Shown piece after piece: positions 47,078 to 64,000 of a DNA stretch of 64,000 nt; within the stretch, counting starts at the first letter, position 1; the number at the start of each line of letters is the position of its first letter. The notes under the pieces are model-generated. The model saw only the letters and a list, made by a program, of their open reading frames with translations. It did no database searches and was not told where the DNA came from. A program made the position numbers and the translations under genes. Source of the DNA: Limnohabitans sp. (GTDB lineage Bacteria > Pseudomonadota > Gammaproteobacteria > Burkholderiales > Burkholderiaceae_C); assembly GCA_030158125.1 (NCBI GenBank), contig JAOATL010000015.1, positions 248,001-312,000 on the forward strand, given 5' to 3'.

Positions 47078-49771
<2,694 letters not shown>

Positions 49772-50024
49772 TGTTGTAGGTTCTCAGATGTCTTGCAAAG
49801 ATTCTCAGAATTCTGCAAACGCTTTTCAAGGTCTTTAGAGCTGACGAATCTCATTGAGTTTTGAACTTCTCAATGAGTTCGAAGGCATGAGCTCCTCTAA
49901 GCGCGCATCAACAAAGAAGTGCCTGATAAATGTGGGGAATTTGCATTAAGCCAATTCCCCAACAAAATTAATTAGACGGCTTGTCAAGAAAACAACGCTG
50001 GTCGAAATTCCCGCTATCTCATGC
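49772..50024. other. gyrB-thsA intergenic region: border of the defence island
   Basis: A 253-base gap with three pieces of structure. Two imperfect direct repeats lie end to end at 49780-49801 and 49801-49822 (TTCTCAGA followed about 8 bases later by TGCAAA). CTCATTGAG and CTCAATGAG (49850-49877) form a perfect 9-base hairpin extended by GAA/TTC. GGGGAATT and AATTCCCC (49934-49960) form another, followed by an A/T-rich run. The two hairpins could end gyrB and thsA transcripts. No integrase or att-like core is recognised. Confidence 0.45.
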
Positions 50025-51509
50025 TTATGCAAGCCTTGCAGACGCAGCTTGCTCAGCGCGTTGGAGCAGTTCCAACACTGCATGGGTGATTTGCTCGTTA
50101 GTGGCAAACGAATCACCAAGCACTCTCAACTCTTTGGTCGCATTGAGGCCCGGCAAGAAAATTTCTGGTTCAGCCATCGCTTGCTGCCAATATGAATGAG
50201 CCACATGTCCACTGATTCCGACAGGAATCACGGGTTTGCCCATGCTCAAGGCAATGCTCACTTCTTCCTCTACACCTGCAGAAGCCACATGCAAACCGTT
50301 GCCGTCATCTTTGTTGCCGGAGACGATCACGACTGCACCGACACGTGAAATCATGTCTTCGCGATGCCGTTTGAATGCCACGTTTCGTCTGGCTACAGGT
50401 GTATTGCCAGGGAATGGACGGATCAAAACTCGATCTGCAGGCTGCACCTGCTGACACTCATAGACCGCATGGTAGGCACCCAATATGGTCTGCTCTGCAA
50501 TTCCGACGCCGAACCCAGACACCAGATTAAATCCACGACGAATGATTTCACCTCCAAGCCGCTTGCTCAGATCATTCAATCGATCCGCCCCAAGTGGTGA
50601 CGGGTCATGGGCCGCACCAGAAACGAATACACCTCGTCGCGTGACGAACGACTCTAAAAGACGCAACAAATCAGGGATCTGTTCGTACTCGTCTACCCAT
50701 ACCGTCTGGATACCGTATCGCAATAAATCTTGGCTTTGAAGCTCTGCCTTGCGCTGCTCGTAGGCGAGCTCTTCATCAGTGCGTATGCCGTTTACGCACG
50801 TTGCAGGCGAACGTCGGGTAATCCAGTAATGGGTTCTTTGATTCACGCCAAGTTGCCCACGGACCTTTGCCAAGATGCGTTCAACGTTGGGGTCTGTGAA
50901 GCTGAACCCTAGAAATAGCAACGTTTTTTCGATGAAGTCACCCTTCAAACTGTCGGTGAACAATCGACGCGTGACGTCATAGTCTTCGTAATCTTGTTTG
51001 GTTAGAACTGCTTGATGTGTCTGTGTGACGCAGCCGTGCATTTTGTAAATCGTGACGTCTCGCCCCTTTCGAGCTTGTGCCAAATTTTCAATCGTCAGTT
51101 TGATCTCGACGTGTCGACCTGCGCTCTTATAAGCATCCTCCAATATTTGGTCGTAGTTGGTTGTCCATACGGTATCAATCGGCAATCGCGTCAGCATCTC
51201 ATGGACAACAGTTGGTTGCGCGTCCCGGAGGAATGCGTCCATCAAGTGTTGATTGAAGTCGCCACGGCCGCACCTGGCATTGACCTGATACTGCGCAAGC
51301 GCTAACAGGTCGTGTTCTTTGTCAATGTCCAGGTCCAATTCATGCGCGGTCTCCCGTAACAAGCCTTTCCAGTCGATGAACCCCGCTTGACGTGAAACAC
51401 CCGCTCCGATGAAGAGTCCCGCCTCACCGTTGAGCACCCTCTCACCGAACCTGCGGACGAAGCCGAGCTGATCCTTGCTCGGCTGCCAAGTTTGTACCGC
51501 GCCGCTCAT
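50025..51509 (-). CDS. thsA: Thoeris NADase effector ThsA (SIR2 + SLOG)
   Basis: 494 residues from the ATG at 51509, which overlaps the thsB stop as ATGA. The N-terminal SIR2-like domain (about 15-280) shows GLFIGAGVSRQAGF (GAGVS at 35-39), TVWTTNYDQ with the catalytic-type Asn118, and KMHG with His158. These residues correspond to the NAD-cleaving pair of Bacillus cereus ThsA. A SLOG domain follows (about 298-460: VFVSGAAHDPSP, NLVSGFGVGIAEQTILGAYHAV, GAVVIVSGNKDD, EEEVSIALSMGKPVIPV), the sensor of the cyclic ADP-ribose isomer made by ThsB. In known Thoeris systems this signal switches ThsA on, it destroys NAD+ and the phage-infected cell stops. It is the last gene of the leftward island. 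Confidence 0.92.
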   Translation of the reverse strand: MSGAVQTWQPSKDQLGFVRRFGERVLNGEAGLFIGAGVSRQAGFIDWKGLLRETAHELDLDIDKEHDLLALAQYQVNARCGRGDFNQHLMDAFLRDAQPTVVHEMLTRLPIDTVWTTNYDQILEDAYKSAGRHVEIKLTIENLAQARKGRDVTIYKMHGCVTQTHQAVLTKQDYEDYDVTRRLFTDSLKGDFIEKTLLFLGFSFTDPNVERILAKVRGQLGVNQRTHYWITRRSPATCVNGIRTDEELAYEQRKAELQSQDLLRYGIQTVWVDEYEQIPDLLRLLESFVTRRGVFVSGAAHDPSPLGADRLNDLSKRLGGEIIRRGFNLVSGFGVGIAEQTILGAYHAVYECQQVQPADRVLIRPFPGNTPVARRNVAFKRHREDMISRVGAVVIVSGNKDDGNGLHVASAGVEEEVSIALSMGKPVIPVGISGHVAHSYWQQAMAEPEIFLPGLNATKELRVLGDSFATNEQITHAVLELLQRAEQAASARLA

Positions 51510-52003
51510 TGATTGGCCCGAATCGTGATGGCCTCTTCGATCCACTTTTCAAGGTTGTCCTTGATGTGTTTGTAGACCGCAGTGCTGTCGCTGCCAGGTG
51601 GGTCATAGGTTTTGACCACGTTGGACAAGTTCTTGGTGCCGTTCTTCAGTGTGAAGCCATCGAATGGATTGGCTCCCTTTGTGCTGGTCTTCCCATCACT
51701 GTTCTTGAGGCCATGGATATGCACTCCCAGCAGGCCCTTGCCAGAAGCCCAAGCCTTCTTGATTTCATGGTCAATCCATTTCCGATTGGCCGTGGCCGAC
51801 CCGATGAGGACCACAACGCAACTGCGTCCCGTCATCTGCTCATCGATCCATTTCCCAATGGCCTTGTCGCCACCTTTTGTGACAGTTTCCCAGTCGTTGT
51901 CTTTCGCCGGTTTGTTGTCCTCGATGGCACCAATGTTACGCACCTGAGAAACCCGCCAGTTGTCGGGTAGGTAATGAAAGCTGTAAAAAACCTTGCGAGC
52001 CAT
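51506..52003 (-). CDS. thsB: Thoeris TIR-like sensor ThsB
   Basis: 165 residues from the ATG at 52003, which has AAGGA five bases upstream; a longer in-frame start lacks a ribosome site. The N-terminus MARKVFYSFHYLPDNWRVSQVRN matches the TIR-like (DUF1863) ThsB fold. CVVVLIGSATANRKWIDHEIKKAW carries the catalytic-type Glu80, GLLGVHIHGLKN follows, and KGANPFDGF is the conserved loop after it. ThsB recognises infection and converts NAD+ into a cyclic ADP-ribose isomer that activates ThsA. Coupled translation with thsA supports the system call. The upstream 215-base gap is very A/T-rich and probably holds its promoter, but no clear boxes stand out. Confidence 0.92.
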   Translation of the reverse strand: MARKVFYSFHYLPDNWRVSQVRNIGAIEDNKPAKDNDWETVTKGGDKAIGKWIDEQMTGRSCVVVLIGSATANRKWIDHEIKKAWASGKGLLGVHIHGLKNSDGKTSTKGANPFDGFTLKNGTKNLSNVVKTYDPPGSDSTAVYKHIKDNLEKWIEEAITIRANQ

Positions 52004-52218
52004 ATACGTCCTTTTGCATAAAAATCCCAATCGACCACCGATCGGGGACACAGAACAAACAGCGAAAAGCATGCCAACAACATTCACCATTACGAATCAA
52101 CAACTTAGATGCTTTCCACTTAAAAAAAGAAGCGGAGAAGGTAAGAAAATTTCTGTAAATAGAAAATATTTATACGCTTGAGATCTTGTCTATTACAAGC
52201 AATGCCAAGATTGAATGG
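52004..52218. other. A/T-rich gap upstream of thsB
   Basis: This 215-base stretch between the GHKL-nuclease gene and thsB is much richer in A and T than its surroundings, especially 52110-52200. CTTGT and ACAAG (52184-52198) form a short inverted repeat. A TATAAATATT block on the reverse strand could serve as a promoter element. It suggests that the Thoeris pair is transcribed separately from the genes above it. Confidence 0.35.
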
Positions 52219-53970
52219 CTACTGTTGAACTGAAAGCTGCCAGTCAACCATCCGCCTTGCAGACGAAATGACGTCAAGAAACGAATAAGCCTCAACGTCA
52301 CCTTCACGATTTGTCATCGGAAAGTCAGCTGATCTGCTGCCGCCCATCACTAACACCTTGATCGGCTTCATCATGTATTTTGAGAGCTCGTGCCGGTAGC
52401 TAATGGCCTGCACGTAATCATCGTGGTTCAACGGGTGAGACGGGCGCTTGAACTCAATGAGTAAGCATGTCTCGTTCAAATCTTCGTTCAACAATAAGTC
52501 AGGGCGTTCCGAGGCCTTGGCACCCCCATACTTCTTGCCCAACATGTCTTCGACTGTCCGCTTGAGTGTCTGGTTGGACCGAAAGAAGGTGTATCCCGTA
52601 CCCAGAATCCACAGGTTGCGCTCGATCGCTTTGTGCATCTCTGCCTCGCGCGTCTCGGGGTTCCTTGCAAGCGCTTCGAGTTCGTCAAGAAACTGGGTTC
52701 GTGCTTTGGCCTGACTGACCAACAAGGCCATGTCTGCCATGCCAAATTCATCAAGAGCCGCCGAGATGGCCGCAACGTCCTTTTTGGAAGCGTCATGGAT
52801 GTGCGACAAAACCGCGCCGTACTCTGCGTTTTCGATTGCGTCGAGCAGTACATGAACATACTGCTCTAGCTTTGTCGGCTCCTCGCCGTAGAAGCGTTCC
52901 AGAACGCGCCGCACAGCCTTGTCCGCAAACTCCCGCCGATGCTCTGGCATGGCAGCGAGCCTGTCTTTGATCGACCGCTTGATTCGAGCTTCAGCAAGTT
53001 GAATTTCTCGGCTGTATCGTTCTTTGAACGCGGCAATCAAAACCGGTTGAATCTGCTCGGTGACCGCCGCCAAAAGATTGCTGTTCTCGATCACACTGTC
53101 CCAGCCTGCTGTAACGTGGTCACGAAGTCCGTCAGCTTCGATCTCTCCGTACAACTTGGTTTTCAGCTTCTGTGGAAAGTCTTCGCGCTCATCAAGCCCA
53201 AAGAAAGAGGGTTTGCCCACTACCTTTCCATCCACGCGCAAGACAATGCCTGCCTGCCGTTGAGCGGATTTTTCATCAGCAATCGCAAATCGTAGTTCTA
53301 CTGGACCGACCCCAGATACATCTACTTTCTGGTTTGTGAATGTACCGACGACGTCGTCGACACCCAGCAGCTTGTGATCGACATAAACGGAAAATTCTGA
53401 CGCGCGCCCGTACTCAAAGATCAGGACCTGCCGCATCCTTGCAGCTTCAGGGAAGGCCAGCTCACCATGGAGAGAATTCAACGTAATGGTGGTGCCATGC
53501 GAATCCGGGTCACAACGCTCGGTATCAATCTGAATTGGCAGATGTTCAATGTCTTCAACACCCGCGAGATCTTTCAAGCGCAGTGTAAATCGGCTGAGTG
53601 TTCCTCGCGTGCGCGTTTCCAGCGTCATCTCAGCTGCAGCCATCAGGCCAGCAAATTTACCAATGCCTTTTCGACCTTTGACAGGCCGTTGCTTGCCAGC
53701 AGTCCGCTCACCTCGATGCTCGCGCCTGTTCCTGGCAATGGCCAAGTAGTGTGATTCAAGTTCAGCCCGCGTCATACCTGTGCCATCGTCTGAAATAACG
53801 ATGGGCGCATCAGTCATAGGGGCTGGCAGTGAGATGTGGACGTTCTCAGCGTCAGCATCCCATGCGTTGTCGACCAATTCCTTCAGTGCTTTCTCCGTCG
53901 ATGGGTACTCCTGGCTTAAAAGCCGAGCCAACCTCGAATCAACTTGAAAGCGTGCAGTCTTTGCTGCCAT
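52219..53970 (-). CDS. GHKL ATPase fused to a PD-(D/E)xK-like nuclease domain
   Basis: 583 residues with a strong ribosome site (GGGAGGA) before the ATG. The N-terminal half is a GHKL/HSP90-type ATPase: EKALKELVDNAWDADA (metal-binding Asn35), VISDDGTGM (61-65, DxGxG) and GRKGIGKFAGL as the lid, close to MutL/MORC-like proteins. A helical middle region follows (about 300-460). The C-terminus (about 460-583) has the nuclease pattern RPDLLL (Asp491), LLIEFK (Glu506, Lys508) and a Q-x-x-x-Y motif in YVQAISY, with FRSN and LWILGTGY upstream. This resembles the DUF4263 (Shedu) type of nuclease, but I cannot confirm it. I infer a defence effector whose ATPase clamp controls DNA cutting. I do not recognise a named system. 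Confidence 0.75.
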   Translation of the reverse strand: MAAKTARFQVDSRLARLLSQEYPSTEKALKELVDNAWDADAENVHISLPAPMTDAPIVISDDGTGMTRAELESHYLAIARNRREHRGERTAGKQRPVKGRKGIGKFAGLMAAAEMTLETRTRGTLSRFTLRLKDLAGVEDIEHLPIQIDTERCDPDSHGTTITLNSLHGELAFPEAARMRQVLIFEYGRASEFSVYVDHKLLGVDDVVGTFTNQKVDVSGVGPVELRFAIADEKSAQRQAGIVLRVDGKVVGKPSFFGLDEREDFPQKLKTKLYGEIEADGLRDHVTAGWDSVIENSNLLAAVTEQIQPVLIAAFKERYSREIQLAEARIKRSIKDRLAAMPEHRREFADKAVRRVLERFYGEEPTKLEQYVHVLLDAIENAEYGAVLSHIHDASKKDVAAISAALDEFGMADMALLVSQAKARTQFLDELEALARNPETREAEMHKAIERNLWILGTGYTFFRSNQTLKRTVEDMLGKKYGGAKASERPDLLLNEDLNETCLLIEFKRPSHPLNHDDYVQAISYRHELSKYMMKPIKVLVMGGSRSADFPMTNREGDVEAYSFLDVISSARRMVDWQLSVQQ

Positions 53971-54058
53971 CGTCTTCCTCCCTAAATATCTGAATTTTCA
54001 GAGTTATTTGTCGATACTCATTTGTCAACAGATGGCAAGTTATAAAGCCCTCTAACGC
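53971..54058. other. Gap between PLD-like and GHKL genes
   Basis: An 88-base A/T-rich gap with CTGAATTTTCAG as a small hairpin and the ribosome site of the GHKL gene at its left end. It may carry a promoter for the GHKL gene, since the six genes above it are more tightly packed. Confidence 0.35.
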
Positions 54059-55018
54059 TCAAAACTTTTGGAGCTTGCGCCTGAACTGCGGGTCACCGTC
54101 AGTGAACTCATCACGTACGTCATTTGCATCATGAGGTGAAAGCATTGACCACCTAGTTGCCTCATTCTTCTTTGTGGTGTCAAAGCCGTATGGGACTGAA
54201 ATTCCCATCAAATTCGTGACAAGGTAGCGATCGTGAAACTCATCCCAAATAAATACCTTGATGTTCAGACTCTTTAGAACAGGATCAGCTTTGATGACTT
54301 GATCGAAGCTTTTCTTCCAGTCGCCAGCAGAACGCAGTTGTCCGCCATTGACAGTCTTTATCTGCCTGTGTAACTCAATATCAACACTTGGATTAATCGT
54401 CGTAATCGCCTTGAGTAGGATCAAGAAGTCTTGGTAATTCGCCGCTTGCAGGTCAAGATAGGGATCAATGAACATCAACGAACGGCTGTACTTGATCAAT
54501 GGCTTCAAGACATTGATGTACGCAACAATGTTCCGATCGACTTTTATCGAATAGCCGCCGCCTGAAAATGGCGGGCAAAAAGGTATCTTAGAGATACCCC
54601 TCGGCAAATCTTCATGTTCTGACGCCCTCAACGAGGCACAGAACTCATCGGTTCCGAAAAATTGGGTGATCTTAGGGTCGCCAATATGGGACGCCAACGC
54701 CTCTGCCAACCACTCGCCTTCAGCCGTAGGAGATCCCTGATTTTGGGCTGCGGCAGGAACGACTCTTCCGTTGACTCTGAGCTTCTTTAGTAGCTCGCGT
54801 GACCTGACATGTAGATCTTCCTTCCGCTCATCCAGAGCATTTCCCCACTTTCCATTTGAGAGATCGCGGATCACGCCAAACCGTTCGATGCCTTTCCATA
54901 GCGACGCAAGAGCGAGATGACCATGAGCTTCTCCAGGAATGAACGCACCTTGATCAGTCTTAACACCGAAGGCTGTCGGAAAAAAGATATCGGGGCTAAA
55001 GGCGAACTCATGCAACAT
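54059..55018 (-). CDS. Phospholipase-D-like protein paired with an AAA ATPase
   Basis: 319 residues, starting 2 bases after the ATPase stop. I do not recognise a named family for the N-terminal half (about 1-170: MLHEFAFSPDIFFPTAFGVK, ELLKKLRVNGRVVP). The C-terminal half looks like a single phospholipase-D-type fold: LMFIDPYLDLQ (DPYL at 185-188), then a strand-helix stretch, and DEFHDRYLVTNLMGISVPYGFD with His262-x-Arg in place of the usual HxK. The pattern is like the MIT-C/PLD-like domains. Such folds cut nucleic acid or phosphodiesters, or merely bind them. Only one HxR motif is present, so activity would require a dimer. The gene is lower in GC than its neighbours. Coupling to the ATPase argues for a two-component module. 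Confidence 0.6.
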   Translation of the reverse strand: MLHEFAFSPDIFFPTAFGVKTDQGAFIPGEAHGHLALASLWKGIERFGVIRDLSNGKWGNALDERKEDLHVRSRELLKKLRVNGRVVPAAAQNQGSPTAEGEWLAEALASHIGDPKITQFFGTDEFCASLRASEHEDLPRGISKIPFCPPFSGGGYSIKVDRNIVAYINVLKPLIKYSRSLMFIDPYLDLQAANYQDFLILLKAITTINPSVDIELHRQIKTVNGGQLRSAGDWKKSFDQVIKADPVLKSLNIKVFIWDEFHDRYLVTNLMGISVPYGFDTTKKNEATRWSMLSPHDANDVRDEFTDGDPQFRRKLQKF

Positions 55019-55020
55019 GA

Positions 55021-56691
55021 TCAGAAGGTTTCCCTGAGTGATTCTTCAAAAAGCCCCTTCGGCCAGGGTTTCAGGAATTCACCTCGCTCGTTCATGCGCA
55101 TTTGCATGATCGCCACGCCCTTGCCTTCGTTTTGTATGAGGTATACGGCGATGTCGCTAGAACTCGCGGGCGGCACGCCTGGCGGTAGTTCGCCATCTTG
55201 GGTTTGGCGTATGCGCTTCATCATTCGGAGAAGCAATGCCTCGCTGTGTGTTTCGATCAAAAAATTGCGCCCGAAGTTGGCGGCTGATTGGAGATACAGG
55301 TCTCCGAGGCCGACTTGTACGCGAGGATGTATATGCAACTCCGGTTGCTCGATCAGTAGTAAAGTTCCGTGTGAGTCTACGGAGGCCGCTACTACAGGGA
55401 TCAATTGCGACAGTCCGACCCCTACGTCGTGCGGCGTTACACGCACATGGTTCTTGGTATCGACAAGCCAAACACGACGATTGACGGGAAGAGCATCGAC
55501 CGAGGCCCAATTCAGATCAAAAGCAGTACTTGCGCCCGAACGAACCGCATCTAAGTACTGCAGAGGAACTTCCCGAAACTCCTCTCGCTCTAGACCATAC
55601 CCCGTACCTAGTCGATTAGGGTCGTAGAGCCACGAGCTAACTTCAGCGAGTTGTGCTGCTGAACACTCATGAAGACGAGACCAGGCAGCTAACCCCCCGT
55701 ACCAACCCACCTCGTTCGCAAAACTATCCAGATTCAAGCGTCGCTTGGGTATGGCTCTCAGTGGGCCAATCGCTCGAGAATCAACAAGAAGATCGCGTAG
55801 CACCTCAAGAGGCCCAACGATGAGTTCAGTCAAAACTCCAGGAGCTATTTCAATGAGATCAACATCGTCTGCACTTTCCTCGAATTTGTCGACAGTGATC
55901 TCATCAAACGCGGGAGATGAAACGACCTTCCCCCAGCGCGGTAAGCCGTTTCTAAAACCGGTAACTGGATACTTGAGTAGATCACGATGCTCGCTATGCC
56001 ATGTGTACTCAGCAGCCAACTCTAGTTTTCTCTCTTCGCGGCGTGACTCAATTTCCTCTTGGCTCGCGCCGACAAGCTCGGCGTCGAGAAAATCGTCGTC
56101 CTCAGTCCTGGGGATTAACTTACGTAGATCCAACGCAACTGTTGGCGCTACTGTTTCAACGCTTCTTGCGGCGGACTCAAGCAATGGGTGACGAACGTTG
56201 ATGTGTGCAAGCCTCTTCCTGCCTGCAGCCACTTGCACGGTGTCTGGCATCACCAGCGCAACATCGGCACCGTTCAATGAAACAAGGTAGTAGTCGAGCT
56301 TGGGTGAGTGATCTTGGTCGTCCGCGCTGAACCCAAATTCGACATAGGCCTCCCTAAGCTTGTTGCTAATGGAAATAGAAGACGTTGCCCCGTACTCTGG
56401 CAGGTCAATGTTGTTGAGATTCAAGTCGTATCCCAGCACCATCCGGCGTCCGATGCTGTGCTTGTGGAGCAAATTCAAAAATCCACCGAGATCGATGTCA
56501 TCTGTAGCGTAAGGCGAACCCATGGGGTTCAATTCGTAGTTATCTAGCACTCCCCGTATGAAGTGCATGGAATGGAGAATCGAACTCTTGCCGGCGCTAT
56601 TCACACCGTACAGCAAGGTGACTGGTTTGATCGGAATTTCTATGGGGCCTTCGATACCTTTAAAGTTCTGAATTCTCAAACCGGTCAGCAT
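55021..56691 (-). CDS. AAA-type ATPase (DUF3696-like) embedded in a type I restriction operon
   Basis: 556 residues. LTGLRIQNFKGIEGPIEIPIKPVTLLYGVNSAGKSSIL gives an ABC/SMC-like head with Walker A at 29-37. LLLIEQPELHIHP (444-456) is Walker B and the signature region, and FLIETHSEALLLRM (478-491) a D-loop/H-loop block. The ending MNERGEFLKPWPKGLFEESL is typical of DUF3696 proteins. There is no Toprim domain, so this is not an OLD nuclease. Related ATPases act as the switch in defence pairs such as Septu (PtuA) and in retron modules. The start overlaps the hsdS stop by 7 bases and the PLD-like gene follows after 2 bases, so all are translated from one message. Confidence 0.8.
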   Translation of the reverse strand: MLTGLRIQNFKGIEGPIEIPIKPVTLLYGVNSAGKSSILHSMHFIRGVLDNYELNPMGSPYATDDIDLGGFLNLLHKHSIGRRMVLGYDLNLNNIDLPEYGATSSISISNKLREAYVEFGFSADDQDHSPKLDYYLVSLNGADVALVMPDTVQVAAGRKRLAHINVRHPLLESAARSVETVAPTVALDLRKLIPRTEDDDFLDAELVGASQEEIESRREERKLELAAEYTWHSEHRDLLKYPVTGFRNGLPRWGKVVSSPAFDEITVDKFEESADDVDLIEIAPGVLTELIVGPLEVLRDLLVDSRAIGPLRAIPKRRLNLDSFANEVGWYGGLAAWSRLHECSAAQLAEVSSWLYDPNRLGTGYGLEREEFREVPLQYLDAVRSGASTAFDLNWASVDALPVNRRVWLVDTKNHVRVTPHDVGVGLSQLIPVVAASVDSHGTLLLIEQPELHIHPRVQVGLGDLYLQSAANFGRNFLIETHSEALLLRMMKRIRQTQDGELPPGVPPASSSDIAVYLIQNEGKGVAIMQMRMNERGEFLKPWPKGLFEESLRETF

Positions 56692-57887
56692 GGTTCGATC
56701 TCCCTTTGACCGGCGTGATTGAGGAGACTGGCACTTAGCGCCTCACGAAGTGCCTCTGCCTCGCGCAAGAACGCATGGTGCTTCTTCAAGCGCTGCTGCA
56801 TGGCCACAACAATATTTGCGAACTTGTCTTGCTGTGCGATGGGTGGCAGTAGCAATGGAATGTCTTGCATGTCCTGTGCATTAATATTTGCCATGCCTAC
56901 GATGCTCTTGGCGCGGCCTTCCAGGGTTCGCTTCCCGTGCGCAGAATTCAGATACCCGGAAACATAGTGCGCGTTGCCGCGCTCGTTCATCCGCACGCGC
57001 ACTAAGTAGCCAGCAATTGCCATGGGCTCGTCTCGCATGTAGACGGCAGTTTTACCGACCAACTCCTTGCTATTGGTTCGGTTGAACAAGAGGTCGCCCT
57101 TTTTTGCCATGTACTTGTGGGCGGACGTCTCATCAAGATCGACATACTTCATCGAGGAAAAGTCCCAGCCGCCGCCATAAGTGATGTTGTTCATCCGAAG
57201 GATGGGGTACTGCCCCATATGTTCATTAGCTTTCTCAGAAGTCCCATAGTTTGCCGAACTTACCAAGTCGCGAATCGTGCCCTTAGGAAATGACTTTTGG
57301 TTTGTCTCCGGATCGCCAAACATGTCGATGAACACCGCACGAAGAAACTCCTCGGTGAGGCTGATGGCTTTCAGGCGTTTGCGGCGAATGCTATCTGCCT
57401 TGTCGAGAATGGCGGCGATTCGTTGTTGTTCAAAAAAAGAAGGCGGAGAAAACGGAAGCGACTTGATCGTTTTGTCGGAAACGGCGGGGTAGTTTGCACC
57501 TGTGGCAAGTCCCACCAGTTGCTTTACAGTGGCTTCGGATGAAATCCAATGAAAGAGGTAACGAGCGTCTAGCTTGCCTGGCTGTGCGCGCAACACACAA
57601 AACCCTGTGGATGCGATCGCACCTGCATGCTCGTTAGTAATGACTGCGACGGTGTTGAGATTTGGTCGAACTGTTGAAACGATAACGTCATTCTCAGCCG
57701 TCTCTTGCTTAGCTCGGCTTGGCGCTTGGTTGGTTGGAACTACTTGAGGATTAATGATTGCCCGTAATTCTCGGTCAACTGAAGAGATGTCCACATACGT
57801 GAAGTGTGATTCACCAAGCAGGAAAATTGAATTGACATTTCTAACGGGCGAAACATAGTCACCCAACTTGCTCTGCGTTGCAGTCAT
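56685..57887 (-). CDS. hsdS: Type I restriction enzyme specificity subunit
   Basis: 400 residues. Two target-recognition domains are joined by conserved helical spacers. The first repeat ends PPSFFEQQRIAAILDKADSIRRKRLKAISLTEEFLRAVFIDMFGD (about 155-200), the second PPIAQQDKFANIVVAMQQRLKKHHAFLREAEALREALSASLL (about 345-390). The domain between (YGTSEKANEHMGQYPILRMNNI and YMAKKGDLLFNRTNS) is a typical target domain. HsdS fixes the bipartite DNA target for both methylation and cutting. Sequence alone does not tell the target. The start overlaps hsdM by 4 bases. Confidence 0.93.
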   Translation of the reverse strand: MTATQSKLGDYVSPVRNVNSIFLLGESHFTYVDISSVDRELRAIINPQVVPTNQAPSRAKQETAENDVIVSTVRPNLNTVAVITNEHAGAIASTGFCVLRAQPGKLDARYLFHWISSEATVKQLVGLATGANYPAVSDKTIKSLPFSPPSFFEQQRIAAILDKADSIRRKRLKAISLTEEFLRAVFIDMFGDPETNQKSFPKGTIRDLVSSANYGTSEKANEHMGQYPILRMNNITYGGGWDFSSMKYVDLDETSAHKYMAKKGDLLFNRTNSKELVGKTAVYMRDEPMAIAGYLVRVRMNERGNAHYVSGYLNSAHGKRTLEGRAKSIVGMANINAQDMQDIPLLLPPIAQQDKFANIVVAMQQRLKKHHAFLREAEALREALSASLLNHAGQREIEPC

Positions 57888-59425
57888 CCTAATAGCTCCT
57901 GAAGGCTATCGAGCTCAGCTTGAATGGATGCTTCGAGTTCCTGCAAAGCCAACAAAATTTCCTTGGGAGTTGCATGGTGCTGTTTGGTGTGCACCTGCCG
58001 CTTGTATCGATTGATCGAGAGGTCATAGCTTTGTGCCCGAATGTCACCAACTGACACCTCAAACGACATCGCCGAACGGTCGCTGAAATCACCCTGACCT
58101 TCGCACCACTGCAGGTACTTAGCCTGCACGTCAGGCATATCTCCCTTACCGTCGCCGATCTTGGTTCGCTTGTCATCCAGAGAGAAACCATCGGACTGCA
58201 CATCGTAGAAAAACACGTTCTCGGTCTTGCCGCCCTTAGCAAAAATGATGATGGCAGTCGATACGCCTGCATAGGGCTTAAATACGCCCGAGGGCAGCGA
58301 GATCACTGCCTCCAGCTGATTATTTTCGATCAAGTGTTGCCGTAATTGCACGTGGGCCTTGCTAGAACCGAAGAGCACACCGTCTGGCACGATGGTGGCG
58401 CTGCGGCCGCCCACCTTGAGCATACGCAGGATCAAGCCGATGAAGAGCAACTCGGTCTTCTTGGTCTTGACAATTCGCAGGATGTCTGGGGCCACGTCTT
58501 GCTCGTCCAGACTACCCTTGAATGGTGGGTTGGCTAGGATGATGTCGAAGGCGTTTTTGGAACCCTTGGGGTGGCGCTCTTCGAAGCTCTGGCTCAGCGT
58601 GTCTTGGTAATGGACATCGGGTTGCTTTACACCATGCATCACCAAATTCATGGTGGCGATGCGCAGCATAGTGGCATCAAAGTCATAGGCATGAAACATG
58701 TCTGTGTCGACGTGTGCACGATGCTCACCCAGCAGGTCACCGCTGTAACGGATTTGCTCTTCACCGTCGACCACTTCCTTGTGCGTACCGGCATCGCTGC
58801 TATGTTGGCGCAAGAGGTAGTCATAAGACTCGATCAGAAAGCCTGCGGTACCGCAGGAAGGGTCGCAAATGCGGTCTGTTGGTTGGGGCTGCATCAACTC
58901 CACCATCATGCGGATGATGTGGCGAGGGGTGCGGAACTGGCCATTGATACCGGCGGTGGTGAGCTTGCTGAGCAGGTACTCATAAAGGTCACCCTTGGTG
59001 TCGCCTTGTTCCAGCGGTAGGTCGTGAACGGCGTTGACGGCTTTGATCAGCAATGATTCTTTTTGAATCATCAGCTGTGCGTCTTTCATGAAGGCAGCGA
59101 ACTGGCTGCCTTCTCCGCTGCTGCGTTCGGCCATACGGCGAAAGTGCGGAAACACGCGGTCGCGCACATGGGGCAGCATTTCTGGGCCGCCGTAATGACG
59201 CCAGGTTTCCCAGCGGCAATCTTGGTCGCCCTCACCAAACAAACTGGGTTCGCGCTTGCCTGTGATCGCGGCCCGCTTTTCTTGCGTCCGCTCTTGCATG
59301 TCCAGCAGACGGCTGTACATGAGGAATGTGATCTGCTCAATAACGGTGAGCGGGTTGGTGATGCCACCGGTCCAGAAGTCGGTCCAGAGGCTGTCGATGC
59401 GGCTTCTTAATGCGCCATTAATCAT
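57884..59425 (-). CDS. hsdM: Type I restriction enzyme methyltransferase subunit
   Basis: 513 residues. The N-terminal helical domain (MINGALRSRIDSLWTDFWTGG) precedes the N6-adenine methyltransferase core: DPSCGTAGFLIES at 188-200 is SAM motif I, and ILANPPF with NPPF at 299-302 the catalytic motif IV. GDTKGDLYEYLLSKLTTAGINGQFRTPRHIIRMMV is conserved before motif I. Two HsdM with one HsdS make the modification enzyme; HsdR is added for restriction. It lies 26 bases after hsdR and overlaps hsdS by 4. Confidence 0.95.
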   Translation of the reverse strand: MINGALRSRIDSLWTDFWTGGITNPLTVIEQITFLMYSRLLDMQERTQEKRAAITGKREPSLFGEGDQDCRWETWRHYGGPEMLPHVRDRVFPHFRRMAERSSGEGSQFAAFMKDAQLMIQKESLLIKAVNAVHDLPLEQGDTKGDLYEYLLSKLTTAGINGQFRTPRHIIRMMVELMQPQPTDRICDPSCGTAGFLIESYDYLLRQHSSDAGTHKEVVDGEEQIRYSGDLLGEHRAHVDTDMFHAYDFDATMLRIATMNLVMHGVKQPDVHYQDTLSQSFEERHPKGSKNAFDIILANPPFKGSLDEQDVAPDILRIVKTKKTELLFIGLILRMLKVGGRSATIVPDGVLFGSSKAHVQLRQHLIENNQLEAVISLPSGVFKPYAGVSTAIIIFAKGGKTENVFFYDVQSDGFSLDDKRTKIGDGKGDMPDVQAKYLQWCEGQGDFSDRSAMSFEVSVGDIRAQSYDLSINRYKRQVHTKQHHATPKEILLALQELEASIQAELDSLQELLG

Positions 59426-59451
59426 GGGTGTTCTTCTTTGTTGTTGTGGTT

Positions 59452-62400
59452 TCAGTGTGCAGCGGGTGGCTGCAGGGGCTCGCCAAAGGCACGCACCAAG
59501 CGCACCACTTCGTCGAGTTGTGTTGGGTTAGGGAAGATGCCGCCAAGGCCTTCGGCGTGGACGGTGTTGAACGGCGCATCAAACAACTGCCCAACAGCGA
59601 TAGCACCAAACTGACGGATGTGGTCCTTCAGCAGGGCCAGAAAGCGCAATTGTTGACTGTTGAGTGCATGCGCCTGCGCGAAGACAGAGAACTGCACATC
59701 CACGGCTGCGTGATCAAGGCCAACGATTCCTCGCAGAATTTGCGTCAGCTGGACTGCGGTATCGGGGTAGAACTCCCGCAGGGTGGCAAGATCGACATCG
59801 GGGTTGCGGGTATGTAGCAAGCTGTTGAGCTTGTCCAGCTCTTCTGCCGTGATGGATTCTCCCCGCCGCAGCTTGAGCAGAACAGGGTCGGTCTCGAATA
59901 ACGGCTCCAAGGCAGATTGCACGGCTTTGCGATAGATGCCGAAATCGACGGACTTGATCTTGGTGGGCCGTACCTGAACTTGGTATTCAGCAGCATCCTC
60001 ACGGACGTCCAGCTGCGTAGTAGGCAGGGGTGGAGGCAACACGGGGCGATCAGCCAATTCCATGATGTCGCGTAAGGCTGTGCGCATGGCATCGAGTTGA
60101 GCAAAAGTTGGCTCTTGCCAGAAGGCATCAGAGCGCAGGACTTGCAGCTCTTTGGCCTTGGCGCGCACAGGATTGAGATGCGGGGGCAGACGTCCAACCC
60201 ACTCCAAGATGGCTTCACGGTGAGCATTAGGTTTGCTGGACTCGGCAATGGCTGCGGCTTCTGCTTTCGCAAGCAGCAGGTCCCATCGCAGGGCGTCACC
60301 CTGGCCGCGCACGTCTAGGGCGCTCATCAAGGGTGCGACTGTTTCCGCCAACAGTTGACGAGTGACGGGCGCGAACTGGTGGACCAACTTGGCGTCTCTC
60401 GCTTGGTTCACGGCTTGCCAGTTTTCACGCACGGAGATGCCACCATCGGGCAGCGCTGCAGCGTCCTGCTGAAGCTGAAGTGCCAGAGCGTCGAAAGCGG
60501 GAATGTCTGATCGAGCCAAGGCCAAAGCAGCAAGTTCAATACGTGCTTCGTAGCGCCGCTGCGTCAGAGGCTTGGGTACATTGGGCTCCACCTCTTCCGC
60601 GTTCAGGTCGTGGAAGGCGAAATTGCCCCAGTGGTCAAAAATCAGAAACTCACTCTTGTCTTGGCCAGGCCCGAACAGGTCTTTGCATAGCCGCGTACCG
60701 CGGCCAATCATTTGCCAGAATTTCACCTTGCTCTTGACCGGCTTGGCGAAGACAAGATTCACCACTTCGGGCACGTCGATACCGGTGTCCAGCATATCAA
60801 CCGAGACGGCTATGCGCAGTTCGCCCTTGGGTTCTTTGAACTGGTCGATCAGTTCTTCGGACCGTGGTTCCTTGGAGTGGATGACGCGGCAAAACTTACC
60901 AGCAAACTGTGGGTACATCTCGTTGAAAAGATCTACCAACAGGCGTGCATGATCGATCTTTCGCGCGAAGATGATGGTCTTGCCGGGAAGCTGACCATCG
61001 GCGTCGCGGATGCCGTTGTCCATCAGGTTGCGCAGAATGACACGGTTGGTGTCTTTATTGAAGACGGCGTCGTCAATTTCTTGGGCGTCGAAGTCCAGGG
61101 TGTTGGGGTCTATGCCTTGGTCTTCGAGCTGGGCTATCTGCTCGTCCGTCAGATGTGCTGCCTTGATGCCATCGCGCATGAACTTGGTCGTGTGGGCAAC
61201 CACGCGGAAGGGCACCAGCTTGCGATCTGCAATGGCTTGTTCTAATGGGTAGTTGGCAGTAGGCAGCTTGTAGTCGCAGCCAAAGAGCTGACAGGTGCTG
61301 CGGCTAACCATCTCCACTGGTGTGGCAGTCAGGCCGACTTGAAGGGCATCGAAATACTTGAAGAGATCGCCGTAGAGGTTGTAGATCGAACGGTGCGACT
61401 CGTCGGCAATGATCAAGTCGAAGAAGCCGACATCGAAAGACTCATAGTCATTGATGAGGCCCTGATAGATTCCGATGTAGATGCGTGCATCCATCTTGCC
61501 CACATCATTGGCCTGCCCGATGACGTAAATCGGCTCACGCACGAAATCAGTGAAGGCGTTCTTGGCCTGCTTGCGCAGTTCCTTGCGGTCACACAAAAAC
61601 AGTACGCGCTTGACCCATCGTGCATCGATCAGAAGCTTGGCCAGCGAGATGGCAACGCGGGTCTTGCCCGTGCCTGTGGCTTGCACCACCAAGGCTCGAC
61701 GATGACGTTGTGTGAATCGTTCGGCGACGCGGGTGATGCTTTCGATTTGGTGAAGGTAGCCAGCAATATTTGCATCGGGCCGAACATCCTTCAACAAATC
61801 AAGCTTTTCCTTGCGCTGAAAACCGATGCGGTATTGCAGCGTGTCTTTGGAATAGAACCCGTAGACTGAGCGGGGTGGGTAGCCACCCGCGTCGTCCCAT
61901 ACCCAGATATCGTGCCCATTGGTATAGAAGATCATGGGCCGCTGGCCATGCACCTTTTCTAGGGCATCAGCGTAAAGCTTGGCTTGCTCTTGTCCTGCGC
62001 GTGCATCAACCTGAGTTTTCTTGGCTTCCACAACGGCAAGAGGCTTGCCGTTGTCGTCCCACAGCACGTAGTCACAGTAGCCCTTGCCGCTGGCGGTAGG
62101 TTGGTGTGGTACTTCAACTTCCTGCCCGACAGAGTCATTCGAAGTTGTGCCAGGCGGAACATTCCAACCCGCCATGCGCAGGTCGCGGTCAATGAGCCAC
62201 TTGCGGGTGTTGTCTTCACTGAAACGCAGTTGGTTGGCTGCAGCTGCGGATGATTGGCTGGCACGTTGCAACTGCAAAGTCGTTGGCGTCGGCGATGCTT
62301 GTGCGGCGACTGAGGCGGTCCGGTCAGCTGCACGTAGCTTGGCCAGCTCCTCCAGAGCTTGTCGCAGGCGCTCTTCTTTAAGGTTATTTTCCTCAGCGAG

Positions 62401-62904
62401 GGCTTTGGCCTTGCGTTTGATTTCAGCTTTGCTGTCGATACCCTCAGCGGGAGGCTGCTTGAACCCAGCAAAGTCATCTACTTGACCACCAAGGAAACTG
62501 ACATGGAGCCAGCGTGCGAGTTGCCAGGCCTCTTGAACACAGCGAACCGCGTCAGTGACATCCACATCCTCACCGTGGGCCGCACGGTTTCCTACCCGGC
62601 GAATCAAATGCAGCTTGTCGAGGACCAGCGGTTGAGCTATTTCCCTAAAACTGGAGTTGTTCAACAAATCCACAAAATTGGACTGTGGAAGACGTTCCAA
62701 TTTGAGCTTGTCGTAGACCCGGTCGACCAACCGCTCGGCAAAATTGCGCAATTTGACGAGTGCGCTCTCGGGGTCACTGTGTGCGTAGTGCTCGGCATGC
62801 CCGCCCATATTGGCGAGCTCCGGATACACCGCACGCAGTGGCTCGAAGTTTAGTGATCGAAGATCTTGCATCCAAATTTGGACGGTTCTCACGTTTGGGC
62901 TCAT
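59452..62904 (-). CDS. hsdR: Type I restriction enzyme nuclease/translocase subunit
   Basis: 1150 residues from the ATG at 62904, which has AAGGGATG in front; the frame is open further without a ribosome site. The N-terminus (about 30-130: ESALVKLRNFAERLVDRVYDKL, IRRVGNRAAHG) is a DUF4145-like domain. A coiled-coil-like stretch follows (about 160-195). The PD-(D/E)xK nuclease lies at 278-295 (CDYVLWDD...VVEAKK; Asp278, Glu293, Lys295). The helicase-like motor has ATGTGKTRVAISLAKLL (409-416), IADESHRSIYN (501-504) and SVDMLDTGIDVPEVVNLVFAKPVKSKVKFWQMIGRGTRL. An EcoEI-like C-terminal domain ends the chain. It translocates unmethylated DNA and cuts at a distance. Confidence 0.94.
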   Translation of the reverse strand: MSPNVRTVQIWMQDLRSLNFEPLRAVYPELANMGGHAEHYAHSDPESALVKLRNFAERLVDRVYDKLKLERLPQSNFVDLLNNSSFREIAQPLVLDKLHLIRRVGNRAAHGEDVDVTDAVRCVQEAWQLARWLHVSFLGGQVDDFAGFKQPPAEGIDSKAEIKRKAKALAEENNLKEERLRQALEELAKLRAADRTASVAAQASPTPTTLQLQRASQSSAAAANQLRFSEDNTRKWLIDRDLRMAGWNVPPGTTSNDSVGQEVEVPHQPTASGKGYCDYVLWDDNGKPLAVVEAKKTQVDARAGQEQAKLYADALEKVHGQRPMIFYTNGHDIWVWDDAGGYPPRSVYGFYSKDTLQYRIGFQRKEKLDLLKDVRPDANIAGYLHQIESITRVAERFTQRHRRALVVQATGTGKTRVAISLAKLLIDARWVKRVLFLCDRKELRKQAKNAFTDFVREPIYVIGQANDVGKMDARIYIGIYQGLINDYESFDVGFFDLIIADESHRSIYNLYGDLFKYFDALQVGLTATPVEMVSRSTCQLFGCDYKLPTANYPLEQAIADRKLVPFRVVAHTTKFMRDGIKAAHLTDEQIAQLEDQGIDPNTLDFDAQEIDDAVFNKDTNRVILRNLMDNGIRDADGQLPGKTIIFARKIDHARLLVDLFNEMYPQFAGKFCRVIHSKEPRSEELIDQFKEPKGELRIAVSVDMLDTGIDVPEVVNLVFAKPVKSKVKFWQMIGRGTRLCKDLFGPGQDKSEFLIFDHWGNFAFHDLNAEEVEPNVPKPLTQRRYEARIELAALALARSDIPAFDALALQLQQDAAALPDGGISVRENWQAVNQARDAKLVHQFAPVTRQLLAETVAPLMSALDVRGQGDALRWDLLLAKAEAAAIAESSKPNAHREAILEWVGRLPPHLNPVRAKAKELQVLRSDAFWQEPTFAQLDAMRTALRDIMELADRPVLPPPLPTTQLDVREDAAEYQVQVRPTKIKSVDFGIYRKAVQSALEPLFETDPVLLKLRRGESITAEELDKLNSLLHTRNPDVDLATLREFYPDTAVQLTQILRGIVGLDHAAVDVQFSVFAQAHALNSQQLRFLALLKDHIRQFGAIAVGQLFDAPFNTVHAEGLGGIFPNPTQLDEVVRLVRAFGEPLQPPAAH

Positions 62905-62911
62905 GCATCCC

Positions 62912-64000
62912 TTATTGCGAGAACTGTGCCATGCCTCCCTGATCTGATTCTTTTGTCTGATCCATGCCAAGCCGCTTAATCCAATTACCAAGCGTTTGGT
63001 AGTTCTCGAAGCCTAACAGCTTGGCCGCAGCCGTTTTTCTTTGTCCGGACTTCGCCATGGCTTGGCTGATCAACTCTCTGGCTGCATCGTCCAAAAATCT
63101 TTGCAAATTAACACCTTGGCCAATTTTTGGAATAACCGATGCCGGTTTTTTGGCTGGAACCAAGAGCCTTGATTTTTCAATATCTCTAGCACTGATTTCA
63201 GCCCCTACAGACCAGATTGCTGCCCTCATGAGGGTATGGTAAAGCTCGCGAATGTTACCTGGCCATACATGCAGATGAAGAATTTTTCTTGCATTTACAG
63301 AAATTTCTTTATGCAATGCTTCGGGTCGACCTGCTGCATCGGCATTGATGATTGCCATGAAATGATCAATCAACGTGTCAAGGTCATCCGCTCGATCCCG
63401 CAATGGCGGCAAACGAAGAATGCCTACTGCTAGTCTGTAAAACAGATCCTCCCGGAACCTACCTGCCGAAATGTCAGCACTGAGATCTCGGTGAGTCGCT
63501 GCAATGATCCGGGTATTGACCTTGACTGATGTGGACTGTCCCAAGGGTGTGACTTCGCCAGACTGAAGCACGCGAAGGAGGCGGACCTGAGTGTCAAGGG
63601 GTAGGTCGCCCACCTCATCTAGAAAAAGCGTGCCGTCTGAAGCTTCTTCAAAGTGTCCCTTGCGGTCAAAAGTAGCACCCGTAAATGCACCTTTCTTGTG
63701 GCCAAACAGTTCAGAGTTGGCCAATTCTGAAGTTAACGCGCCGCAGTTGACCGCCAGAAATGGCTTTGCGTGACGCGGGCTCGCAGCATGGATGGCTTCG
63801 GCAAACAACTCCTTACCGGTACCGGTTTCTCCAAGAATAAGCACCGGCACTTCGTAACCCGCCATCCGACGCGCCAGTGCGATTTGTTCCGCCACGGCTG
63901 AACTGTTGTAAATGATCTTGCTGAATTCAGGCGTTGTGCTCTGCTCTGCACTGGCTAATCGCTCAGCGCGCTCACCGCTTCGGCGCAAATATTCCGGCAG
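62912..64000 (-). CDS. Sigma-54-dependent transcriptional activator (5' end outside window)
   Basis: 362 codons are visible; the frame is open to the right edge (LPEYLRRSGER), so the signal-receiving N-terminus is missing. The AAA+ activator domain is complete: ILGETGTGKELFAEAIH (Walker A), FGHKKGAFTGATFDRKGHFEEA with the GAFTGA loop that contacts sigma-54, GTLFLDEVGDLPLDTQVRLLRVLQ (Walker B), FREDLFYRLAVGILRLPPLRDR, and WPGNIRELYHTLMRA. A Fis-like helix-turn-helix closes it (KSGQRKTAAAKLLGFENYQTLGNWIKRLG). The stop lies 7 bases before the hsdR start, so it shares direction and probably transcript with the restriction genes. Control of the island by sigma-54 is an inference. Confidence 0.9.
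   Translation of the reverse strand: MPEYLRRSGERAERLASAEQSTTPEFSKIIYNSSAVAEQIALARRMAGYEVPVLILGETGTGKELFAEAIHAASPRHAKPFLAVNCGALTSELANSELFGHKKGAFTGATFDRKGHFEEASDGTLFLDEVGDLPLDTQVRLLRVLQSGEVTPLGQSTSVKVNTRIIAATHRDLSADISAGRFREDLFYRLAVGILRLPPLRDRADDLDTLIDHFMAIINADAAGRPEALHKEISVNARKILHLHVWPGNIRELYHTLMRAAIWSVGAEISARDIEKSRLLVPAKKPASVIPKIGQGVNLQRFLDDAARELISQAMAKSGQRKTAAAKLLGFENYQTLGNWIKRLGMDQTKESDQGGMAQFSQ

Follow-up and report, generated by a model that had tools for sequence, protein, structure and literature searches.

Two-gene systems in which an OLD-ABC ATPase is combined with a Toprim, HNH, PD-(D/E)XK or PIN protein have been described as backup effectors, and the accessible part of the source (PMC12839542) names no dyad of an OLD-ABC ATPase with an HKD protein. 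In addition, RtcR-like CARF-sigma54 proteins have been noted beside restriction-modification (RM) systems (PMC4012209), and the CoCoNuT paper (PMC11090510) described superoperons headed by RtcR in which type I RM genes are joined by ancillary ones; the accessible portions of these two papers do not mention a pair of an ATPase and a phospholipase D (PLD)-like protein. Here we analysed a 64,000-nt stretch of Limnohabitans sp. DNA (hereafter the window; contig JAOATL010000015.1, positions 248,001 to 312,000), in which the genes of a putative OLD/Rad50-type ABC ATPase and a PLD-like partner follow the hsdS gene of a type I restriction operon. The ATPase and its partner form an obligate pair, and, in agreement with an earlier note made from the window's letters alone, which knew of no named system with this pair, it matches none in PADLOC, Pfam, NCBIfam or PHROGs. 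On balance, we lean towards reading the pair as a two-gene defence module in which an inducible, ATPase-gated PLD nuclease would act as backup effector.

The pair was followed in 52 loci (L numbers) from two IMG/VR contigs, 38 GTDB genome contigs, four plasmids and eight further genome stretches. The ATPase gene stands immediately before the partner gene in all 51 loci where the neighbouring DNA is readable (L043 was excluded from this count because its partner is truncated by the contig start), and in most loci the two genes overlap by one to a few bases. Incomplete ATPases are included among the 51 (a remnant in L064, two open frames in L042 and L073, and contig-end cuts in L061 and L066), and the partner gene of L036 is truncated. 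A profile of the ATPase run over 398 Pseudomonadota genomes gave 23 matches at E <= 1e-30. Eleven of these span the profile entirely or for its greater part (that of G719 as two pieces), and the remaining 12 are confined to its C-terminal part (at most 146 bits). The partner is present in 11 of the 11 genomes with a full-length ATPase and in none of the 12 with a C-terminal match only; the 12 partner genomes are those 11 and G918, which holds the contig of L047, the partner profile having given 14 of which two were BrxL. With this adjacency and co-occurrence the two genes cannot be regarded as chance neighbours, and the earlier note's provision that they might rarely be found together is not what the survey returned. 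In L047 (1-184), the ATPase is reduced to its last ~20 residues before the partner, and by eye an IS3-type transposase-like end lies at the contig edge. On plasmids, DUF3696 ATPases of more distant kinship occur with different partners, PDC-M55B in L008 and L009 and unassigned ones in L007 and L010.

By their record titles, the members belong to alpha-, beta- and gammaproteobacterial groups, Magnetococcales, Planctomycetaceae, Verrucomicrobia, Acidobacteria, Nitrospiraceae, Desulfuromonadales, Binatota and Deinococcus, many of them as metagenome-assembled genomes (MAGs). A single-protein search of 369 genomes of the class and 299 of the family returned the window's own copy alone, a result that tells more of the divergence of the window protein than of absence, as three further genomes of this class were recovered with the profile. 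Viral contigs searched with the window protein alone, and phages searched by tblastn with the Methylocella partner, gave nothing. The hsdRMS-ATPase-partner operon is present on two IMG/VR viral contigs, L038 and L039 (hsdR is cut in L039), and the long opposite-strand frames after the operon in L038 look like putative phage tail genes. In an Acidobacteria MAG (L067, 4696-10909), two tandem ATPase-partner pairs lie behind one sigma54 activator. Near copies (L050/L051, L039/L047 and L006/L025) were retained in the counts, and L051 was omitted from the alignments and the tree. Set aside were the duplicates L027, L028, L029, L032 and L003 (the same as L047, L072, L070, L071 and L004, respectively; shared sequence checked), the non-members L007-L010 (other partners) and L035 and L037 (BrxL), and L001 and L011-L024, which are shorter versions of loci otherwise covered.

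Judged from its sequence, the product of the first gene is an OLD/Rad50-type ABC ATPase without a Toprim family in Pfam. It has the split Rad50/SMC-type ABC head of the OLD family, with Walker A, signature-like, Walker B and H-loop motifs. Pfam assigns AAA_15 (3.7e-15) and AAA_21 (8.4e-13), no Toprim family is among its Pfam matches, and DUF3696 falls below threshold (12.7 bits against a 22-bit cut-off). Across 31 aligned sequences, that of the window among them, the motifs Walker A, GxGxSQ, EQPE and ETHSE show full or near-full invariance; the invariant residues comprise G29, N31, G34, K35 and S36 of the P-loop, G426 and Q429 of the signature, E448/P450/E451, E480-T481-H482 and a C-terminal W-P-x-G-x-F-x-E motif. 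The closest solved chain by profile is the OLD nuclease TsOLD (6p74, 2.5e-13), followed by PtuA, GajA and one retron ATPase (4.5e-5 to 7.9e-5) and, lower in the ranking, by more GajA, SMC and Rad50 chains and AriA (0.0023). Meanwhile, the best PDB matches of the structure model (mean pLDDT 81) in Foldseek are Rad50, OLD (6p74), SMC/cohesin/condensin heads, GajA and retron ATPases; the TM-scores are modest and the root-mean-square deviations (rmsd) large, so the likeness is that of the head and not of the entire chain. The nearest PADLOC models are PDC-M55A (1.5e-36) and NsnB (2.5e-34), both strongest over the C-terminal part, and there are further matches to AriA (partial, 9.6e-17) and PtuA (3.6e-7, P-loop only).

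The C-terminal half of the partner is predicted to have the PLD-like fold of the PLD superfamily, residues 157-293 of the model mostly having a pLDDT of at least 90 with a dip at 221-240. The DPYL motif occupies residues 185-188 and the HDR motif residues 262-264. D185, H262, R264 and G278 are invariant in all 36 aligned members, the window's included, and H217 (35/36), R162 (33/36) and E215 (33/36) are also conserved; H and R are retained in ten additional members checked outside the alignment. Several proposals of the earlier note hold: the ATPase has an ABC-type head and no Toprim match, and the partner with DPYL and HDR is PLD-like in its C-terminal half and matches no PtuB or HNH model, as opposed to the HNH nuclease of Septu. 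Of its label 'AAA/DUF3696-like', the AAA part has Pfam matches and the DUF3696 part a sub-threshold match only.

Sequence comparison indicates that the kin of the partner are the HRD-type PLD domains of BrxL. The partner profile also caught two BrxL proteins in other genomes, whose C-terminus is the Pfam MIT_C PLD-like domain, and in a profile-profile comparison the BrxL MIT_C domain matched the partner at 90% probability, with DPY on DPY and the HxR...GLD stretches aligned. The partner family itself is absent from the libraries searched. No consistent Pfam family was found for the 36 members (12 families with one member each, best E 0.0027), the window partner has no match in NCBIfam or PHROGs, the PADLOC matches are to BrxL alone (3 of 36 members, best 5.5e-5; the window protein weakly, at 0.014), and a PDB search by partner profile gave nothing convincing. 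In Foldseek, the top of the list for the partner model is TrmBL2, with a poor superposition (rmsd ~20), followed by PLDs, the PLD restriction enzyme SauUSI (7.4e-4) and, more weakly, MITD1 (2.6e-3). From the TrmBL2 matches, the N-terminal half may be a winged helix, in a region modelled with low confidence.

The kinship with BrxL and the presence of SauUSI among the matches bear on a direct role, in which the pair would be an auxiliary restriction nuclease that cuts foreign DNA with or beside HsdRMS and without suicide, like SauUSI or the BrxL PLD domains. The PLD-like fold agrees with this, as does the HRD domain common to the partner and BrxL, which in BrxL shows the same change of the HKD lysine to arginine as in the partner and is considered a likely active DNase in the accessible part of PMC12839542. 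However, the pair is without a helicase or translocase and occurs in 11 informative loci without an upstream hsdS (see below), and we consider such a role rather unlikely.

The earlier note had placed the pair inside an operon of type I restriction genes, in tight coupling to hsdS. In the window, the genes are ordered on the minus strand as sigma54 activator, hsdR, hsdM, hsdS, ATPase and partner (Table 1), and the 7-base overlap of hsdS with the ATPase gene and the 2-base gap between the ATPase and partner genes were described correctly. In 31 of the 52 loci, an hsdS gene of the same orientation lies upstream of the pair, at a distance of at most 70 bases in 16, of 222-769 bases in 9 and of 1.3-3.7 kb in 6. 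The other 21 loci consist of 11 in which 3 kb or more of upstream DNA contains no hsdS and 10 with less than 3 kb; after exclusion of the latter, hsdS is upstream in 31 of 42 informative loci, in a sample that is not neutral, as the seeds were mostly hsd-linked and matches were required to share short peptide patterns. Being built into the operon is therefore a strong tendency and not a rule. As 11 of the 42 loci lack an upstream hsdS, L068 having hsdMSR downstream instead, we rejected the pair as an integral component of the restriction enzyme. Among the same 11 loci, an N6-methyltransferase gene lies downstream in L058. In the reverse direction, close HsdM proteins were found in 21 of 249 genomes, and 9 of these 21, not all of which need belong to the sample of the partner search, are on the partner list. 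A quick tree of the partner, in which 19 of the 44 inner branches are starred and 12 are open, requires a minimum of 8 changes of hsd-association state among 40 labelled rows, with L068 labelled hsd despite its downstream hsd genes; therefore the link between the pair and hsd has probably been made or lost repeatedly.

This recurrent linkage would suit a guard against anti-restriction proteins, the idea of the earlier note. Its ATPase, on recognising either a DNA mimic made by a phage or a restriction complex that is inhibited, would unleash the PLD partner, by analogy with PARIS, which detects Ocr via its OLD-ABC protein according to the accessible part of PMC12839542. The BrxA gene directly after the pair in L075 points in the same direction. 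However, 11 informative loci are without upstream hsdS, and among these the sigma54 regulator stands directly before the pair in L054, L067 and L068 and divergently beside it in L060. Given the hsd-free loci, a guard's trigger cannot everywhere depend on an upstream type I restriction system, and guarding is not the whole story; we regard it as doubtful.

Some loci depart from the common arrangement. In L005 (an Azotobacter plasmid) and L056 (Marinicella, with a short 268-residue partner), hsdR and hsdM are in several frames and the ATPase in one. A 186-residue gene product, GIY-YIG-like by eye, is encoded between hsdS and the ATPase in L039-L041 and L046. In L026 (2636-4525), an RmuC-family gene lies between hsdR and hsdM, an arrangement that resembles that of ShdA in the accessible part of PMC11090510. 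In L075 (6688-8348), the partner gene is overlapped at its end by BrxA, which makes a BREX gene another neighbour of the module. On the Deinococcus plasmid (L002, 4727-6484), the pair is preceded by a gene that weakly matches a Piwi domain (2.8e-5, below the cut-off).

At the head of the operon, the window has a sigma54/CARF-like regulator and a promoter motif, which are absent from the earlier note. The part of the regulator inside the window matches PADLOC RtcR_PspF2 CARF_AAA_HTH (6.2e-141); the full protein matches Sigma54_activat (6.2e-67) plus a helix-turn-helix (HTH), and the RtcR N-terminal domain is borderline (22.1 bits against a cut-off of 23.1). Its N-terminus matches a leave-one-out profile of the regulators of the other loci at 2.7e-48, the N-termini of all 15 sigma54 regulators form one family by such profiles (E <= 4.2e-25), and 13 of the 16 regulators tested, among them that of the window, contain a literal GAFTGA. 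The protein thus combines the CARF-like N-terminus, the sigma54 AAA+ domain with GAFTGA and the HTH of RtcR/CARF-like sigma54 activators. A recognised regulator is at the operon head in 26 of the 52 loci, a sigma54 activator in 15 (including the window's and excluding L055, with a weaker activator downstream) and a WYL protein in 11. When one mismatch at most was allowed, a -24/-12 motif was found beside the regulator in 13 of the 15 sigma54 loci (6 exact) versus 0 of the 11 WYL loci, using a fixed 300-base interval for which the expectation is 0.013 per 300 bases of the same DNA; L058 was scored as a miss, its motif lying 65 bases before the ATPase gene and outside the interval. A sigma54 gene is present in the Limnohabitans sp. 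genome. RtcB was not found there (positive controls matched in 9 of 14), which makes it improbable that an Rtc repair operon is what the regulator controls in this genome. Eight of the 15 sigma54-regulator loci are without an upstream hsdS; therefore the regulator may control the pair independently of restriction.

According to the reading that we favour, the OLD-family ABC ATPase would sense infection and gate the partner, which would carry a PLD-superfamily (HRD-type) phosphodiesterase domain and, once released or activated, would serve as a backup effector, or an abortive one, by cutting nucleic acid. The pair would be co-produced with the type I restriction enzyme from an operon under the RtcR/CARF-like sigma54 activator, so that restriction and backup would rise together upon the activator's signal of infection or damage. 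This reading builds on the obligate pairing, the predicted folds, the conserved residues resembling an active site, the recurrent linkage to hsdS, the regulator with its motif and the likely DNase activity attributed to the BrxL HRD variant, with its own lysine-to-arginine change, in PMC12839542. Catalysis by the PLD domain, nucleic acid as its target, control by the ATPase, the trigger and induction during infection are inferred. A wider proposal, which we put forward tentatively, is an unnamed, phylum-spanning module in which the CARF-type sigma54 activator would read an infection-derived nucleotide or RNA-end signal and switch on restriction together with the ATPase-gated HRD-type PLD effector; this would amount to an inducible two-tier immunity, the backup half of which would also work alone and be re-recruited to different restriction systems.

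Several observations weigh against the favoured reading. The 11 informative loci without upstream hsdS mean that restriction is not required, and the window's promoter motif has one mismatch, located in the -12 element. For the partner, the lysine of the HKD motif is replaced by arginine in all 36 members, and the last position of HxR(x)4[DE], the 'D' of HKD, is N in the window protein where D or E stands in 34 of 36; in further members it is N (L002), K (L005), Q (L026) or A (L006 and L025). In addition, Pfam MIT_C (PF16565) matches 0 of the 36 members at E <= 1, the model has low confidence over the N-terminal half, and no row of the quick tree diverges more than that of the window partner (end branch 4.48). 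To our knowledge, the PLD folds of MITD1 and of TrmB type are not enzymes. The partner could accordingly be read as a non-catalytic PLD-like domain that binds a ligand, a membrane or DNA, as in MITD1 or the TrmB-type regulators, with the pair regulating or stabilising the restriction operon; the TrmBL2 and MITD1 matches, the lysine-to-arginine change and the N of the window protein fit it. In contrast, the H, R and D are invariant in 36 of 36 members across several phyla, the superposition on TrmBL2 is poor and the pair is also found without upstream restriction genes, and we judge this reading unlikely.

Table 1. Positions of the operon's genes and promoter motif in the window.
Feature	Position	Strand	Remarks
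RtcR/CARF-like sigma54 activator gene	62912..64000	-	continues beyond window end; whole gene 519 aa, L078:10912-12471
sigma54 -24/-12-like promoter motif	62916..62931	-	3' end of regulator gene, immediately ahead of hsdR
hsdR, type I restriction subunit	59452..62991	-	PADLOC REase_I 8.1e-271; Pfam ResIII, EcoEI_R_C
hsdM	57884..59425	-	PADLOC MTase_I 1.2e-175; N6_Mtase 1.1e-56
hsdS	56685..57887	-	PADLOC Specificity_I 4.3e-96; Methylase_S 5e-17
OLD/Rad50-type ABC ATPase, presumed sensor/gate of pair	55021..56691	-	
partner, 319 aa: N-terminal half and C-terminal PLD-like (HRD-type, MIT_C/BrxL-like) domain, residues ~157-293	54059..55018	-	

In Table 1, hsdR is given from its first TTG; by eye comparison with the HsdR of L038, its true start is probably downstream, at ~62871. 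On the same strand and downstream of the module, a complete Thoeris pair was found at 50025-52090 (PADLOC; ThsA 9.5e-151, ThsB 1.4e-75). At 52219-53970, 88 bases after the partner gene, a 583-residue protein is encoded with a GHKL ATPase domain and a weakly Shedu SduA_C-like C-terminus; it partially matches the BbrUII/HgiDII restriction enzymes, and a single-sequence profile found no copy of it in the other surveyed loci. Compared with three congeners (L134-L136), the region 49771-64000 contains different genes after gyrB, and none of the module genes is present in the 19 kb covered in these congeners. The yajC-secD genes, which follow the island in the window, are located ~9-11 kb after gyrB in L134 and L135 and were not reached within the DNA covered in L136.

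Membership of named systems was considered in turn. PARIS was rejected, as there is neither an AriB Toprim-like partner nor a fused AriAB and the partner's PADLOC match is BrxL alone. Septu was likewise rejected, the partner being without a PtuB/HNH model match and the PtuA match of the ATPase covering the P-loop only. The same applies to Menshen, as NsnB matches part of the ATPase only and no Nsn model is among the matches listed for the partner; the Menshen genes are named NsnABC, with NsnA and NsnC models in PADLOC. No DUF262 match to Pfam was obtained among nine window proteins. A DUF262 component of Menshen, with an OLD-nuclease-like protein, is described in the accessible part of PMC10952713. 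PDC-M55 was rejected since the partner and 35 aligned relatives have no PDC-M55B match; unlike the window partner, the partners in L008 and L009 match PDC-M55B and have DUF262 neighbours. No description of the pair was met in the literature searched, in which the ABC ATPase and Menshen literature was covered in part and either may mention it, and a PLD-type partner in the role of an OLD-ABC dyad is unreported in the literature examined, as far as the accessible parts of those sources go.

If the favoured reading is true, a PLD-type effector would be added to the OLD-ABC family of defence dyads, and 'hypothetical protein' genes behind hsdS would gain a role. Meanwhile, the restriction system would probably be inducible through a predictable sigma54 promoter, and two questions would become testable: which ligand the RtcR-like CARF regulators at RM loci sense, and whether guards against anti-restriction are present in RM operons.

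Besides Menshen and PDC-M55, three groups of known systems are closest to the locus. As in the RtcR/CARF-sigma54 type I RM superoperons, an RtcR-like regulator heads type I RM and ancillary defence genes here; the CoCoNuT loci differ in that no CoCoNuT-type gene is present among the nine window proteins scanned (Pfam, PADLOC). With BrxL carrying a C-terminal PLD-like domain (MIT_C, or 'HKD-endoDNase' in the accessible part of PMC12839542), the partner has the DPY, H-x-R and GLD-like motifs in common. However, in BREX that domain is fused to the AAA+ BrxL, whereas in the window it belongs to a separate protein with a different N-terminal half and an ABC ATPase of its own. The OLD-ABC/nuclease dyads (PARIS AriAB, Septu PtuAB, Gabija GajA and ABC-HNH, among others) share with the pair a defence-linked OLD/Rad50-type ATPase, the window ATPase matching OLD, PtuA, GajA and AriA. 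As here, most of them encode a small nuclease as partner within the operon, and RM or BREX genes are often nearby. The difference lies in the partner, which is HRD-type PLD-like and does not match their Toprim, HNH, PD-(D/E)XK or PIN models. The pair most likely works like PARIS, Septu and the other OLD-ABC/nuclease dyads, with a different type of partner.

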